Shown in pieces: positions 10,381 through 30,686 of a stretch of 36,193 nucleotides of DNA (its first letter is position 1; every line of letters starts with the position of its first letter). The stretch comes from an uncultured Neisseriales bacterium (GTDB taxonomy: Bacteria; Pseudomonadota; Gammaproteobacteria; Burkholderiales; Aquaspirillaceae). The stretch lies in the NCBI GenBank assembly GCA_937871815.1, contig CALMOJ010000182.1:1-36193 (forward strand), given 5' to 3'. The notes under the pieces are model-generated. The model had not been told where the DNA came from and ran no database searches. It saw only the letters and a program-made list of their open reading frames with translations. The translations under genes and the position numbers were made by a program.

Positions 10381-10383
10381 CCT

Positions 10384-10698
10384 TAGAACCTGTTTGCGGT
10401 CTGCGATACTCGGGTGATTTTGCGTTGAAATTCGGAAAAAACGTGATGCCCCGCCGCTGGTGGCAGATGGGGTTGGGCTGTTATTCCCCTCCTTTCGGAG
10501 GAGGGGTGCCCCGTAGGGGTGGGGTGGTTGCCTTTGGGTTTAGATTTTGACTCTGGCGGCCTCGCCAGCCACCACCCCGTCCAGCTTTGCCGTGGCCCCC
10601 TCCAGCGGAGGGGGATGTAGCCAAGACGGCAGAGATTGTGCTTTATATTGCGAATTTCGCCTTGGCTAACCCGCCGTTCGCTAGACTTTGAACAGCTT
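10384..10698 (+). repeat. Composite intergenic element: repeat A split by repeat B
   Basis: The 387 bp between the ubiI-like gene and dsbC are almost entirely repeat. The left end (10384-10447) matches the left third of repeat A, including the ACTCGGGTG and TGCGTTGAAAT blocks. The right end (about 10627-10698) matches the A right third, including TTTCGCCTTGGCTAACCC and TTCGCTAGACTTTGAACAG. Repeat B fills the middle. The outer ends carry a partly paired inverted repeat (CTGTT at the left, GAACAG at the right). No gene is seen here. Confidence 0.75.
10448..10626 (+). repeat. Repeat B, copy 1
   Basis: This GC-rich stretch of about 180 bp is closely similar to the reverse complement of 14791-14943. 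Shared blocks include GGGGTGGGGTGGTTGCCTTT and GGCGGCCTCGCCAGC. It contains several short G-run/C-run hairpins and no coding frame of note. Confidence 0.8.
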
Positions 10699-10767
10699 CT
10701 TACCGCCGATTGCGCCCTGCCTGCTGCCGTCGCACCCCCTTTTTTTGACTTTGCCCAGAAAGCCGCC

Positions 10768-11496
10768 ATGACTGTTTTTTTTCGCCCCCTGCTTGTTTCC
10801 TTGCTCACCCTGCCGCTGCTGGCGTGCTCGGCCTCTGCGGCTGATGACAGTGCCGCCGTCAAAAAACGCTTCACCGAACGCTTCCCTGAGCGCAACGTGG
10901 TCAGCGTCAACGCCACCCCGCTGAATGGGATTTACGAAGTGGTGATGCAAGGGCGGCAGATTGTGTATACCGACACCCGCACCGACTTTATCTTTGTTGG
11001 CGATATGGTTGATGTCAAAAAACGCCAAAGCTTGACCGAGCAGCGGATGAATGAATTGTCCAAAGTTGATTGGAAAGCCCTGCCGCTCGACCTCGCCGTA
11101 AAAGAAGTGCGCGGCAATGGCAGCCGTTCCTTGGCCGTGTTCTCCGACCCTGATTGCCCCTACTGCAAAAAGCTGGAGCAAGACAGCCTCGCCAAGCTCG
11201 ATAACGTGACGATTTACACCTTTTTGCTGCCGCTGACCGAGCTCCACCCCGATGCCGCCCGCAAATCCGCCCAAATCTGGTGTGCCACCGACCGCACTGC
11301 CGCATGGCTCGACCTGATGCGGCACAACAAAGCCCCCCAAGGCGCGGCCAGCTGCGACACCCCGCTGGCGCGTATCCAAACCTTGGCGAAAACGCTGGGC
11401 ATTTCGGGTACACCTGGGCTGGTCTTCCCCTCGGGCAAGCTCGTGCCTGGAGCCATTAGCCAAGCCGAGATTGAAAAACTGTTAGCGGGTAAATAA
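10768..11496 (+). CDS. dsbC: Periplasmic thiol:disulfide interchange protein DsbC
   Basis: DsbC isomerises wrong disulfide bonds in periplasmic proteins and is kept reduced by DsbD. From ATG 10768 the product has 242 residues: a signal peptide (1 to about 24, ending CSASA), an N-terminal dimerisation domain to about residue 85, and a thioredoxin-like domain with the active site CPYC at 130-133 and a cis-Pro loop in GISGTPGLVF. A second cysteine pair (Cys at IWCATD and at ASCDTP) is also present, as in DsbC. The open frame extends 132 bp upstream, but that part is repeat A sequence, so the longer start is rejected. Confidence 0.92.
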   Translation: MTVFFRPLLVSLLTLPLLACSASAADDSAAVKKRFTERFPERNVVSVNATPLNGIYEVVMQGRQIVYTDTRTDFIFVGDMVDVKKRQSLTEQRMNELSKVDWKALPLDLAVKEVRGNGSRSLAVFSDPDCPYCKKLEQDSLAKLDNVTIYTFLLPLTELHPDAARKSAQIWCATDRTAAWLDLMRHNKAPQGAASCDTPLARIQTLAKTLGISGTPGLVFPSGKLVPGAISQAEIEKLLAGK

Positions 11497-11521
11497 GCCC
11501 GCTGTGCATGGTTTTTGGCTA

Positions 11522-12346
11522 ATGTCGCCCCCCCTCGATTTGCTGCCCGCGACCCTTGTCAGTGCGGTGTTGTTGCCGCCTGGCAGTACCTTGTTGCTAC
11601 TGGGCTTGGCACTGCTGCTGTTTCGCCGTCGGCCAGCATGGGCGCGGGGCTGTGTGGTGTTGGCGTTTGGGATGCTGGCGGTGGCTTCCTTGCCGATATT
11701 GGCCAACGGCAGTATGCGCTTGCTGCAAACCGCCGCGCCGATTACCCCCACCGCGTTGCAACAGGTCGATGCGATTGTGGTGTTGGGCGGCGGACGGCGC
11801 AAAGCCGCACCCGAGGCCGACGGGCAAGACGTGGTCAGCGACACGGCCTTGGCGCGCGTGTTGTACGCCGCCCAGTTGGCCAAGGCGAGTGGCAAGCCGC
11901 TGCTGCTGACCGGTGGCGCACCGGATGGCGGGGTGGCCGAAGCGGTGTTGATGCAGCAGGTCTTGCAGCGTCAGGTTGGGGTGACGGCGCGTTGGCTAGA
12001 AACCGCCTCGCGCACCACGGCAGAAAACGCCAGCCTCTCGGCCTCGATTTTGCATCCGCTGGGGAAGCGTCGGATTGCCTTGGTGACCAATGCGTGGCAT
12101 ATGCAGCGTGCCGAGGTGGTGTTTGCCCACACTGGCTTTGTCGTCACGCCCGCCCCGATGGGGTATTTTTCGGCTAAAGAAGGGCTGATAGCGTGGTTGC
12201 CATCGGCGGCCATGTTGGCCAACAGTGCTCAGCTTTGGCGTGAAGCCATTGGGCAGCAGGCCTACCGCTGGCACCGTTACCGCACCAGCTTAAACACCGA
12301 TATCACCCCGCACCCCCCCACGTCGCAGCCCGTGTCGCGGCCTTGA
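11522..12346 (+). CDS. YdcF/ElyC/SanA-type DUF218 membrane protein
   Basis: The product of about 274 residues has two N-terminal hydrophobic segments (about 10-35 and 42-62) followed by a DUF218 domain with the typical opening VDAIVVLGGG, the LLLTGG strand, ETASRTTAENA and VTNAWHMQRA. In E. coli, ElyC is linked to peptidoglycan and lipid-carrier metabolism and SanA to envelope permeability; a cell-envelope role is likely here but the substrate is unknown. ATG 11522 is used; a GTG at 11504 in the same frame is an equally possible start. Neither has a good ribosome-binding site. It follows dsbC closely on the same strand. Confidence 0.85.
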   Translation: MSPPLDLLPATLVSAVLLPPGSTLLLLGLALLLFRRRPAWARGCVVLAFGMLAVASLPILANGSMRLLQTAAPITPTALQQVDAIVVLGGGRRKAAPEADGQDVVSDTALARVLYAAQLAKASGKPLLLTGGAPDGGVAEAVLMQQVLQRQVGVTARWLETASRTTAENASLSASILHPLGKRRIALVTNAWHMQRAEVVFAHTGFVVTPAPMGYFSAKEGLIAWLPSAAMLANSAQLWREAIGQQAYRWHRYRTSLNTDITPHPPTSQPVSRP

Positions 12347-12425
12347 TTTGTGCCATGACAGCCTGTTTTGATGCAATGCTCAGTCGCTCAATGCGGCCTT
12401 AACCTAATCCTAAAAGGGGGTTTCG

Positions 12426-13190
12426 ATGAAAGTCGGTGCCATCATCATTGGCGATGAATTGCTCTCGGGCAAACGCCAAGACAAACATCTGCCGCAACTG
12501 ATTCAGCTCTTGGTGGCGCGGGGTATCAAGCTGTCGTGGGTGGAATATATCGGCGACGATGCCGCCCGCCTGACCGCCACGTTTTGCCGCAGCCTCAACA
12601 GCCCCGACTTGGTGTTTAGCTTTGGCGGGATAGGTGCAACGCCGGATGACCTGACCCGTGCCTGTGCCGCCCATGCAGCGGGTGTGCCGCTTAAAATCCA
12701 CCCCGATGGCCAAGCCATTGTCGAAGAGCGTTTTGGGGCGGAGGCCTACCCACACCGCATCAATATGGTCAATATTCCGTGTGGCAGCAGCCTGATTCCG
12801 AATCCGGTTAACCAGATGCCGGGCTTTAGTTTTGCCCACCACCACTTTGTGCCTGGCTTTCCGAGCATGGCGTGGCCGATGGTGGAATGGGTGCTGGATA
12901 CCCACTACCGCCACTTGTTCGACAGTACCCCCGATATTGAACTGACCGTACTGGTGCCCCAAGCCCGTGAAGGGAACTTAATCGACATCATGCAGGCTTT
13001 TGTACGGGATAATCCTGCGCTTAAGCTGTCTAGCTTGCCCAGCTTTGGCACGGCATCTTTGCCGCCGCATATTGAGTTTGGTGTGACCGGTGCCCCGCTG
13101 TTAGCCGAGCCCGCCATGCACCACTTGGTCGAAGCCCTGAAAGGCGCGGGCTATACCCCGCAGGCTGTCGTGCACCGCGCGGCAAGCTAA
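12426..13190 (+). CDS. Molybdopterin-binding (MoaB/Mog-like, CinA N-terminal type) domain protein
   Basis: The 254-residue product begins with the fold shared by MoaB, Mog and the CinA N-terminal domain: MKVGAIIIGDELLSGKRQD, then FSFGGIGATPDDLT, and further on NPVNQMPGF and the VPGFPSM stretch. There is no C-terminal CinA deamidase domain, so it is not full CinA. Stand-alone proteins of this kind are widespread and their function is not settled; molybdenum cofactor handling is assumed from the fold only. The ATG follows AAAAGGGGGTTTCG. No other molybdenum genes lie nearby. A repeat A end begins immediately after the stop. Confidence 0.85.
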   Translation: MKVGAIIIGDELLSGKRQDKHLPQLIQLLVARGIKLSWVEYIGDDAARLTATFCRSLNSPDLVFSFGGIGATPDDLTRACAAHAAGVPLKIHPDGQAIVEERFGAEAYPHRINMVNIPCGSSLIPNPVNQMPGFSFAHHHFVPGFPSMAWPMVEWVLDTHYRHLFDSTPDIELTVLVPQAREGNLIDIMQAFVRDNPALKLSSLPSFGTASLPPHIEFGVTGAPLLAEPAMHHLVEALKGAGYTPQAVVHRAAS

Positions 13191-13250
13191 GAACGTGTTC
13201 AAAGCCTCGCGAACGATGGGGTCAGCCAAGGTGAAATACCCCGAAGCCTC
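13191..13250 (-). repeat. Lone right end of repeat A (reverse orientation)
   Basis: The sequence just after the stop at 13190, read on the minus strand, matches the A right end: CCTTGGCTGACCCC, then CGTTCGCGAGG and GAACACG. The match fades out near 13245, where a REP-like hairpin begins, so this copy appears truncated. Confidence 0.6.
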
Positions 13251-13253
13251 TGT

Positions 13254-13302
13254 GTAGGTCGGGATTTATCCCGATACTTTGTCGGGTTAAAACCCGACCT
13301 AC
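13254..13302. repeat. REP-like palindromic hairpin
   Basis: GTAGGTCGGG (13254-13263) is perfectly complementary to CCCGACCTAC (13293-13302). Between them lie two smaller palindromes, TCGGGATTTATCCCGA and GTCGGGTTAAAACCCGAC, so the unit can fold as one long stem or as two hairpins. GTAGGTCGGG is a familiar REP-type head. It lies between two genes transcribed in the same direction. Confidence 0.8.
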
Positions 13303-13417
13303 GTCTGGCGGCGTATTTACAGCAAATAGCGCACCTTATAACTAGGCTCTAAGACCTCCCCCTAACCCCGACCCCCGCGCCCTGTTTAAGGCGTGTTTAA
13401 CAGCAAAGAGAACAACC

Positions 13418-14719
13418 ATGCGGCAAACGTGGAGCGTGACCACCGCGCTGGCTATTACGCTGGCCACCATCGGCATGGGCGAGGCGGCAGAAACCCGCCC
13501 TGCCATCAAAATCACCCCGCTGAAACGGCTAGAGGGCAGTCCTGCCCCTGCGGCAACCGACAAGGCCAGCAAGCCCGCCCCAGCGGACAAGCCCCTTGCT
13601 GCCGAGACGGATAGCCGCACGACGCAGGAGGGCGACACGGCACCCGAAGCGGCGACCAAGGCGGACACGGCCAGCCCCAGTGTGGCAAGCCCGACTGCCC
13701 CCGCCAAACGTGCCAAGCCTGCCCCGCGTGCGGCGGCAGCCGCCCCTGCCGCCCCTGCCACCCCTGAAGCCGCACCGTCCGCCGCGTCCAGTGCTGCTAA
13801 AACAGAGCCAGCGGCTCCCCACCTGACCGAGGCACCGGCTCCCGCCGAGGGATCGCCGCCAGTCCGCGCCGCCAAGCCGACCCCGCAGCCAGCCCAAGCG
13901 GCTGCGCCGTCTCGTCTTGCTGCACCCGTTGCGGCTGCCGTAGCCGTCGGCGCGGCGACCTTGGCGACATCGCCTAGCGAGCCGAGTTCGCCCGCTGCTG
14001 CCGCCAAACCTACGCCCCCCGTGGCCGTGCCGCCGTCCGCGCCGGTAGTCAAACCGGAGCCATCCCCTGTGTCGCCTGTACCCAGTCCGGTCGAGGCGAT
14101 GACTGCCCCTGCCCAGCCCGCCAGCCCCTCGGTGGCCGCCCCTGCGGTCGTGCCCCATAAGCCCAAACCCAAGCCGCTGCCGAGTCGGCTGTTGCCGCCG
14201 CCGGTGACGGTGCGGGCAGAAGCCCCGACTGCCGCACCCGCTGCCCCGCCGCGCCCTGCGGCACCACCTCCGATGCGTGCGGTGTTGCCGCCGTCGGTGG
14301 TGTCCTCAGGGCAGGCCGTGCGGCCTTCGCCTTTGGTGTCGATAGGTACGATGGCGGCTGCCCCTGCTGTGGCTGCGCCACCATCGGCACGCCCTGTTTC
14401 ACCGGCGCGTGCCGAGCCCCGCCTCAGCCCGAGCTTGACCACTCAAGGCGTGCTGTCTGGCAAAAGCGTCCGTGACCATAGCTTTGCCGGCAGTGCCGGT
14501 AATGTGGTGCGGGTGACCTTGTCCGGTGCGAACCCGTTGGCGTATTTTGTGTTGCGCGGCCCTGATAACGGCATCGTCACTTCAGCGGAAACCCGCGACT
14601 GGATGGGGAGTTTGCCCGCTGCCGGTCGCTATACGGTGCAGGTGTTTTTGTACCGCGATGGGGCAGGGGCGGGGGGTGCGGTGGATTACCGCTTGCGGGT
14701 GAACACGGTTAAGCCTTAG
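13418..14719 (+). CDS. Secreted Pro/Ala-rich protein with C-terminal beta-sandwich (PliG/PPC-like) domain
   Basis: The 433-residue product has an N-terminal signal peptide (cleavage likely after GMGEA, about residue 23), then about 310 residues of low-complexity Pro/Ala/Lys/Ser sequence that would be extended, and a C-terminal domain of about 85 residues. That domain reads as a small all-beta fold: SGKSVRDHSF, RVTLSG, YFVLRGP, GSLPAAGRYTVQVFLYR, VDYRLRVN. The GxLPAxGxYTxxVxLxR pattern is like that of lysozyme-inhibitor PliG-like and pre-peptidase C-terminal-like domains. A periplasmic or surface protein with a spacer reaching through peptidoglycan is plausible; no enzymatic motif is seen. It is flanked by repeats on both sides and has no obvious partner gene. 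Confidence 0.75.
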   Translation: MRQTWSVTTALAITLATIGMGEAAETRPAIKITPLKRLEGSPAPAATDKASKPAPADKPLAAETDSRTTQEGDTAPEAATKADTASPSVASPTAPAKRAKPAPRAAAAAPAAPATPEAAPSAASSAAKTEPAAPHLTEAPAPAEGSPPVRAAKPTPQPAQAAAPSRLAAPVAAAVAVGAATLATSPSEPSSPAAAAKPTPPVAVPPSAPVVKPEPSPVSPVPSPVEAMTAPAQPASPSVAAPAVVPHKPKPKPLPSRLLPPPVTVRAEAPTAAPAAPPRPAAPPPMRAVLPPSVVSSGQAVRPSPLVSIGTMAAAPAVAAPPSARPVSPARAEPRLSPSLTTQGVLSGKSVRDHSFAGSAGNVVRVTLSGANPLAYFVLRGPDNGIVTSAETRDWMGSLPAAGRYTVQVFLYRDGAGAGGAVDYRLRVNTVKP

Positions 14720-14790
14720 AGCCTGTTGAGCGGCTCGCGAACGGCGGGTCGGCCAAGGCAAAATGCCCCGAAAAAGCACACACGCTGCGG
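14714..14790 (-). repeat. Repeat A right end, reverse orientation, joined to repeat B
   Basis: Read on the minus strand this matches 10627-10698: GTGTGCTTTTT, then TTTTGCCTTGGCCGACCCGC, CGTTCGCGAGC and CAACAGG. It starts at the stop of the preceding gene and passes directly into repeat B, the same junction as at 10.6 kb. A matching left end of A is not found beyond B. Confidence 0.65.
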
Positions 14791-14943
14791 CCTTGGCTGC
14801 TATTCCCCTCCGCCGGACGGGGTAGTTGCTGGCGAGGCCGCCAGAGCCAAACCCAGACCCAAAGGCAACCACCCCACCCCGATGGGGCACCCCGCCACGG
14901 GAGGGAAATCACAGCCCAAGCCCAGCGACCACCTGTGGCGGGG
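14791..14943 (-). repeat. Repeat B, copy 2
   Basis: This is the reverse complement of repeat B copy 1, with about 150 bp aligned from the CCACAGGTGG side to the GGAATAGCAGCCAAGG side. Conserved blocks include GGGGTGGGGTGGTTGCCTTT and GGCGGCCTCGCCAGC. The remaining 75 bp up to the terminator hold no gene or further match. Confidence 0.8.
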
Positions 14944-15019
14944 AATGGCGGCGTAGGTCACCGGCGGCGGGGAATAAAAACCAAACCCTCTTAGCTGGCT
15001 GAAAGGTCGCGCCAAAAGC

Positions 15020-18190: not shown

Positions 18191-18327
18191 GAGAACCAGC
18201 TTACGATTTGCGATGCTCGGGTGCGCCCTGCGTTGAAATGCACAAAAAATCCGTGTGGATTGCAGTCCAACGCTGTTTTTTCGGTTCATTCCGCCTTGGC
18301 TGACCCTTCGCTCGCTAAATCGTAAGC
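18191..18327 (+). repeat. Repeat A, full copy 1
   Basis: Terminal arms GCTTACGATTT (18199-18209) and AAATCGTAAGC (18317-18327) are a perfect 11-bp inverted repeat. Shared internal blocks are GCGATGCTCGGGTG, CTGCGTTGAAATGC, GTGTGGATT, CGCCTTGGCTGACCC and TTCGCTCGCTA. The element fills the gap between the cytochrome c' promoter region and the mnmC-like gene. Confidence 0.8.
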
Positions 18328-18383
18328 GCGGTGCTCACGCTGTGCGGAACCTCCCGCTGGCTTTAGAATGCCCAGCACTTTCT

Positions 18384-20602: not shown

Positions 20603-20678
20603 TGGAGCGGGAAACGAGATTCGAACTCGCGACCTCAACCTTGGCAAGGTTGCGCTCTACCAACTGAGCTATTCCCGC
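20603..20678 (-). tRNA. tRNA-Gly (GCC), copy 2
   Basis: This is a 76-nt cloverleaf with the encoded CCA. The acceptor GCGGGAA pairs with TTCCCGC and the anticodon loop is TTGCCAA. It is identical over its whole length to the tRNA-Gly at 20715-20790, and 36 bp separate the two copies. Confidence 0.97.
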
Positions 20679-20714
20679 ACTGACGACACAAACAACCATG
20701 CGATTCATAAAAAC

Positions 20715-20790
20715 TGGAGCGGGAAACGAGATTCGAACTCGCGACCTCAACCTTGGCAAGGTTGCGCTCTACCAACTGAGCTATTCCCGC
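20715..20790 (-). tRNA. tRNA-Gly (GCC), copy 1
   Basis: This is the first tRNA of the cluster, identical to the copy at 20603-20678. A near-consensus promoter overlapping the end of pgsA starts transcription about 30 nt upstream of it. Confidence 0.97.
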
Positions 20791-25013: not shown

Positions 25014-25185
25014 TAGATACGCCTTTTCCGCACAGAGGACACCTTCTCCTTGCTAAGTGCTTCGGCAGTGCCGGTGTCGCTGCCCTGTGGCGATGCGGGC
25101 TGGGGATGTCGGTTTAGTCATCGTCTTGTGGCAGTCTGCTTTGGGCTGCAATGTGCCCAATCCCCCATGCTACCGCCGCTAAGTG

Positions 25186-25319
25186 CTGTTTACGCGCCGT
25201 GATACTTGGATCAACCTGCGTTGAAGTGCGCCAAAAGGTGCGTGTGGATTCAGTCCCAGTGCCGCTTTTTTGGCGCATTTCGCCTTGAGTAACTCCTTTG
25301 CTCGCTAGCGCGTTAACCG
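25186..25319 (+). repeat. Repeat A, full copy 2
   Basis: Outer arms GTTTACGCGC (25188-25197) and GCGCGTTAAC (25308-25317) pair with one mismatch. An inner inverted repeat, 25223-25236 with 25268-25281, pairs at 13 of 14 positions. Shared blocks are CTGCGTTGAA, GTGTGGATTCAGTCCC, TTTCGCCTTG and TTTGCTCGCTAGCGCG. It lies in the 523-bp gap between guaB and the aminotransferase gene, which otherwise shows only the guaB terminator and one hairpin. Confidence 0.8.
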
Positions 25320-25396
25320 CTTCTAACCCCTCTCCGCTGTTCACCACACACCCCAATGCAGATTCATCACAGACGACCGGTGTTTGGGTGTGAATG

Positions 25397-30221: not shown

Positions 30222-30250
30222 AGTAGGGGGCTTTCGTAAGCGAATTTAAG

Positions 30251-30387
30251 AACCTGTTCACAATCAGCGATGCTCGGGTGAGTCTCTGTTGAAATGAACC
30301 TCAAAATACGTATAGACTCAGCCCCAATGCCGCTTTTTAGGCGTATTTCGCCTTGGCAATCCCTTCGCTCGCTAGCGCGTGAACAGC
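30251..30387 (+). repeat. Repeat A, full copy 3
   Basis: Outer arms CTGTTCAC (30254-30261) and GTGAACAG (30379-30386) are a perfect 8-bp inverted repeat, extendable with one mismatch. An inner pair AAATACG (30304-30310) / CGTATTT (30342-30348) is also perfect. Shared blocks are AGCGATGCTCGGGTGA, CTGTTGAAATG, ATGCCGCTTTTT, TTTCGCCTTGGC and CCCTTCGCTCGCTAGCGCG. Confidence 0.8.
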
Positions 30388-30686
30388 TTCGTAAGAGGTG
30401 GGCTGCTGAGGGGGGGGCGACAGAGTAACGATCGTGGTCTAATCTTGTCATGGTCCAATCTCGCTGCATAGCCTGATGAGTGGAAGATGTGCCTCTCCCA
30501 AGGACACGGTAATGATGTGCCACCTACCGAATTTTAGCGCACGCGAACAGCGTCAAAATTACGGGGAGCCGCGATAGCCGTACCTTGATAAGACCCAATT
30601 GCCGGTTGAGTATCTGAGCGGATGCTTGACTATGGTGCGAATACGGGTAAAGGCCGAGATTAGCGAAGACGATTCACGCAATCCGC
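30388..30686. other. Unassigned 300-bp intergenic stretch
   Basis: No convincing gene is seen. It holds a G run near 30411-30418, an imperfect direct repeat TGGTCTAATCT / TGGTCCAATCT within 30430-30470, and a hairpin of AATTTTAGCGC (30530-30540) with GCGTCAAAATT (30550-30560), 9 of 11 paired. No tRNA or known small RNA was recognised. Confidence 0.4.

Follow-up and report, generated by a model that had tools for sequence, protein, structure and literature searches.

Composite repeats with a second palindromic repeat between the ends of a MITE in an uncultured Neisseriales bacterium

The window analysed here, a 36,193-nucleotide stretch, is contig C182 of a draft genome of 2.34 Mb in 260 contigs and carries two copies of a composite repeat in which a palindromic repeat, B, is joined to the arms of another repeat, A. 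We show that A is a MITE with a 3-bp TNA target-site duplication and that B is a palindromic repeat in its own right, probably captured by A. The composites form a subfamily of A, and it is well supported that a composite was copied. The likely scenario is that A was moved in trans, that the central ~45 bp of one copy were replaced by a B-bearing block and that the resulting composite then spread as a unit. This would be a clear example of a mini-transposon that exchanged its interior for a second repeat before spreading, with the breakpoints and target duplications still readable, and it bears on the origin of mosaic repeats in bacteria, BOX and BIMEs among them.

The A element

The genome sequence was sampled as stretches around matches to the repeats, and 30 aligned copies yielded an A consensus of ~142 bp that starts with GAACCTGTTTACGATCTGCGAGACTCGGGTGATCCTGCGTTGAAAT and ends with ATTTCGCCTTGGCTGACCCTTCGTTCGCTAGATCGTAAACAGSTTC. 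Its outer ~20 bp are terminal inverted repeats (GAACCTGTTTACGATCT / AGATCGTAAACAGGTTC), within the ~15–30 bp range used to define MITEs, and the arms pair imperfectly further in. With up to three mismatches allowed, the left-end pattern matches at 177 sites across the 2.34 Mb of the genome, versus one site for the reversed-pattern control. Both ends are present in 92 distinct elements, 72 of which measure 140–149 bp. TNA triplets flank both sides of 71 elements and are equal in 57 of these, compared with ~30 expected by shuffling, a value of 57 being reached in none of 20,000 shuffles; the target duplications that the first-pass annotation had proposed to look for are therefore present in the A family. 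The terminal inverted repeats, the end-match counts, the narrow length range and the equal triplets together identify A as a MITE, as does its short sequence with no transposase gene (plain elements mostly 140–149 bp, complete A-B-A units about 250–316 bp). Two variants of the A end, TTTACGATC and TTCAAAGTC, match within an element more often than expected by chance (46 and 22 elements matched, 19 mixed; Fisher P 1e-6). Four loci (L120, L137, L143 and L169) hold ~63-bp elements that are hardly more than both A ends.

Three plain copies lie in the window, and folding of the copy at 30250 gave a z value of -3.6:

30250–30391, plus strand: plain A element, 142 bp, between TAA (30247–30249) and TAA (30392–30394)
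25183–25323, plus strand: degraded plain A element, 141 bp, TAA on either side
18193–18333, plus strand: degraded plain A element with flanks TGA and TCA (repeat search)

A search of plasmid and phage collections gave no match, and neither did a search of assembled genome contigs with the exact A pattern, in a collection that possibly leaves out the bacterium's own genome. An Rfam scan of the window reported tRNAs only. Two tandem tRNA-Gly(gcc) genes at 20603–20790 share an identical 81-bp repeat and stand beside tRNA-Cys and tRNA-Leu genes.

The B palindrome

B is a palindrome of ~110–150 bp with the layout ATTCCCCTCC..GGAGGGG..GGGGTGGTT--..--CCACCCCGTCCGGC..GCCGTC..CCCCTCC..GGAGGGGAAT. Its right arm has 50 matches in the genome versus none in the control, and looser matching together with the shortened window copy brought the collection to ~57 copies. 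More than half of them (>30) have no A end scoring above shuffled scores in this genome. B was also found in Gallionella sp. STC_7 (same order), in betaproteobacterium MS502-89 and in a Geobacter MAG; around these copies, the sequence that was read out contains no A. Both the copies with no detectable A end and the occurrence of B without A in other genera establish B as a repeat independent of A. The first-pass annotation had regarded a B found mostly alone with many different flanks as evidence against copying of the composite, an objection that is half borne out by these findings. The other observation that it would have counted against copying, a failure of the A-like flanks to align with full A copies, is not seen, as the flanks do align. 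No target duplication of B's own was identified. In Gallionella STC_7 (L200/L206), several B palindromes are scattered along one stretch inside ~2 kb. A B-bearing genome of the same order (G119) shares this stretch with the Gallionella record L206, which places the bacterium studied here among the betaproteobacteria.

Structure of the A-B composites

The complete composite of the window is a 314-bp A-B-A unit with TTA on either side, and its folding gave a z value of -4.9. The second copy, on the minus strand, is one-ended. The features of both are as follows:

10383–10385, no strand: left target-site triplet TTA of the complete composite (read from the sequence; genome-wide element set)
10386–10441, plus strand: A left arm with terminal inverted repeat, beginning GAACCTGTTTGCGGTCTGCGATACTCGGGTGA (sequence, copy alignment, element set)
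10442–10479, plus strand: segment often present left of B, GTGATGCCCCGCCGCTGGTGGC..GGGGTTGGGCTG
10480–10617 (about), plus strand: B palindromic repeat, ATTCCCCTCC..GGAGGGG[G/A]AT
10618–10640, plus strand: linker TAGCCAAGACGGCAGAGATTGTG, ending at the breakpoint common to 18 copies (copy alignment)
10641–10699, plus strand: A right arm with terminal inverted repeat (sequence, element set, copy alignment)
10700–10702, no strand: right target-site triplet TTA of the complete composite (sequence, element set)
14716–14718, no strand: target-site triplet TTA adjoining the A right end of the second copy
14719–14778 (end about), minus strand: A right arm of the one-ended composite (sequence, repeat search, copy alignment)
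14779–14925 (about), minus strand: linker plus B palindrome of the one-ended composite, in which the right arm of B is shortened
14926–14975, minus strand: GC-rich segments associated with B, beyond the palindrome; an A left end is absent

The first-pass annotation had described B as joined to A at the same point in these two places and had concluded that the composite itself was copied. The junction between B and the right arm of A, where GCCAAGACCGCAGCGATTGCGC meets TTTTTT..ATTTCGCCTTGG, indeed falls at an identical place in 18 aligned copies, both window copies included. The sharing of this breakpoint by 18 of the ~57 B copies and the existence of eight complete A-B-A units (window 10386–10699, C26, C123, C224, C201:3455, two in C207, and C200) uphold the conclusion that the composite itself was copied. 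The left junctions, on the other hand, differ. The commonest, CTGCATTTGCTAGC followed by ATTCCCC, was seen in 6–8 copies and is used by most complete composites, whereas the window copy retains a longer A left arm, up to GAAATTCGGAAAAAA, followed by an extra GTGATGCCCCGCCGCTGG.. segment before B; the A-left junction of this segment is otherwise seen only in C201:5672-5897. About half of the copies with the shared junction have no A left end, and the second window copy, where only the A right end can be read, was correctly assigned to this type and to the minus strand, the two window copies being recovered as inverted repeats with 74–83% complementarity. The coordinates given earlier are off by 1–2 bp.

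Relative to plain A, the aligned composites have lost ~45 bp of the centre, a piece that starts at the loop side of the A left arm and extends to about GTCCCAACG. B has thus replaced the centre of A rather than split it, and simple insertion of B into an intact A does not hold as the general case. The triplets outside the A ends are equal in five of the eight complete composites (window TTA/TTA, C26 TCA/TCA, C224 TTA/TTA, C123 TAA/TAA, C200 TAA/TAA), a proportion that is not significant alone (chance ~43%) and agrees with the family-wide TNA result; the TCA of the C26 composite is a rare triplet.

Composites and neighbouring genes

The complete composite (10386) follows an FAD-monooxygenase gene, a few bases past its stop, and precedes a DsbC-like gene. 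Two other elements provide the ORF upstream of them with its stop codon: at the one-ended composite, the TTA triplet and the first G of the element make up the TAG (14717–14719) of ORF 13418–14719, and the REP-bearing element at 13191, described below, does so at 13188–13190. In a sample of element boundaries, 34 of 144 end an ORF of at least 100 codons, compared with 4.5% of random TNA sites, an excess that is an upper bound as the control takes in sites within genes. At the window start (1–130), a 61-bp direct repeat (97%) with a 69-bp period overlaps ORF 32–1240.

A second type of interior

B is not the only interior found between A ends, as seen from a further element of the window:

13191–13349, plus strand: element with A ends around a GTAG-REP-like head-to-head dimer, TAA on either side

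Its interior reads GTAGGTCGGGATTTATCCCGA..TCGGGTTAAAACCCGACCTAC and shows the tag and stem-loop, arranged as a head-to-head dimer, by which GTAG REPs are defined (PMC3733652). The join between A end and REP dimer recurs in C222, C221 and C68. The A ends therefore carry more than one kind of interior. A possible, though tentative, generalization is that A ends act as a general carrier whose loop tolerates replacement, at least two unrelated palindromic repeats (B and the GTAG-REP-like dimer) having been independently captured and spread. If so, one transposase would spread several repeat families in the lineage.

The congener and a candidate mobiliser

A congener contains four plain A copies, three of which were read out and two of these have TAA on either side. 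A search of the congener with the composite sequence found no composite, only A-end pieces being matched. With its few plain A copies, this genome makes the order of events testable.

The mobiliser of A is inferred: a search of the DDE_Tnp_1 genes in this draft genome and in the congener turned up none with A-type ends. DDE_Tnp_1 is represented in the present genome by decayed fragments only, no DUF4096 genes were found in it, and a comparison of end sequences revealed A-type ends in none of the congener's multi-copy IS. A duplicates a 3-bp TNA target, as do IS5-family elements of the IS1031 group and as expected of elements derived from them. Decayed IS5-type IS were detected at C80:1-262 (L069), C100:16-175 and C167:46-468, the C80 copy lying inside an A-B composite. 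The IS5-type fragment starts with TAA followed by GAAGCTG and continues with TCTTGAAAATC versus TTTACGATC in A, a weak similarity to the A ends. Because these next bases differ from those of A, the fragment hints at an IS5-type partner of A but does not prove one.

Origin of the composites

In the scenario that we consider likely, a transposase, probably of the DDE kind, would act in trans on the ~20-bp terminal inverted repeats of A and duplicate the 3-bp TNA target. One ancestral copy of A would have had its central ~45 bp exchanged for a ~170–200 bp block holding B, presumably by capture of B into A. As the A ends were left intact, the composite would still be mobile and could have spread to many sites as a unit, and later recombination between B and A sequences combined with decay may account for the variety of left junctions and for one-ended copies like that at 14719. 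The plain A copies of the congener, where no composite was found, and the B copies seen without A in other genera are among the findings in favour. Counting against capture followed by spread are the failure to find a transposase gene with A-type ends in the two genomes, the equal triplets of the complete composites, which alone fall short of significance, and the proportion, about half, of shared-junction copies that lack the A left end and would not result from the mere transposition of a whole element. These right-ended copies would suit a palindromic B element that was itself the mover and took the A right arm along, A-B-A arising by recombination with A copies, and the majority of B copies without any A end and the presence of B without A in other genera point in the same direction. 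However, the eight complete composites with both A ends, the equal TNA triplets outside these ends in some of them (TCA/TCA included) and the lack of an identified target duplication of B's own make mobility driven by B improbable.

The breakpoint lies in the palindromic centre of A, a plausible hot spot, and one could imagine independent insertions of B at this preferred spot with no copying of the composite. The composite in C167, with B reversed and the A core kept, agrees with this, and it indicates that B entered A more than once, in a separate event. Repeated insertion could hardly have produced the common ~23-bp B-A linker in 18 copies along with the same loss of the centre, and we regard it as very improbable. 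Equally hard to credit is a spread of the B-A junction by homologous recombination or gene conversion among repeats, with no transposition. It is compatible with the mixed end variants, the several left junctions and mosaic copies (C116:5435-5623, for instance, has an inverted A-right on its left side), but it requires a prior A or B copy at every site, and the TNA duplications mark the A family as insertions. Capture of B by A followed by spread of the composite thus remains the reading that we favour.

Comparison with known repeats

Bacterial MITEs include NEMIS/Correia, RUP, ERIC, Nezha and MITEAba12 (review PMC10969869). Like them, A is short and non-coding, has terminal inverted repeats, a target duplication and many copies, lies near genes and forms strong hairpins; unlike them, its ends enclose three interiors (its own core, B and the REP-like dimer), and the partner IS was not found. 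The streptococcal BOX elements consist of terminal modules and exchangeable internal ones, and in S. suis boxB occurs between two different end pairs (PMC3049150). The A/B repeats are similarly modular in layout, with an exchangeable interior, whereas a tandem array of the internal module was not seen in the A/B composites. REP dimers within longer palindromes have been described for A. variabilis GTAG-15 and H. neapolitanus CGTC-1 (PMC3733652), where, as here, a palindromic repeat lies regularly inside a longer one; the outer palindrome A differs in showing the TNA duplications of an inserted element, and one of its cargoes, B, is not a GTAG REP. A mobile palindrome with swappable inner modules is therefore of a known general kind, with precedents in BOX (PMC3049150) and in nested REP dimers (PMC3733652).
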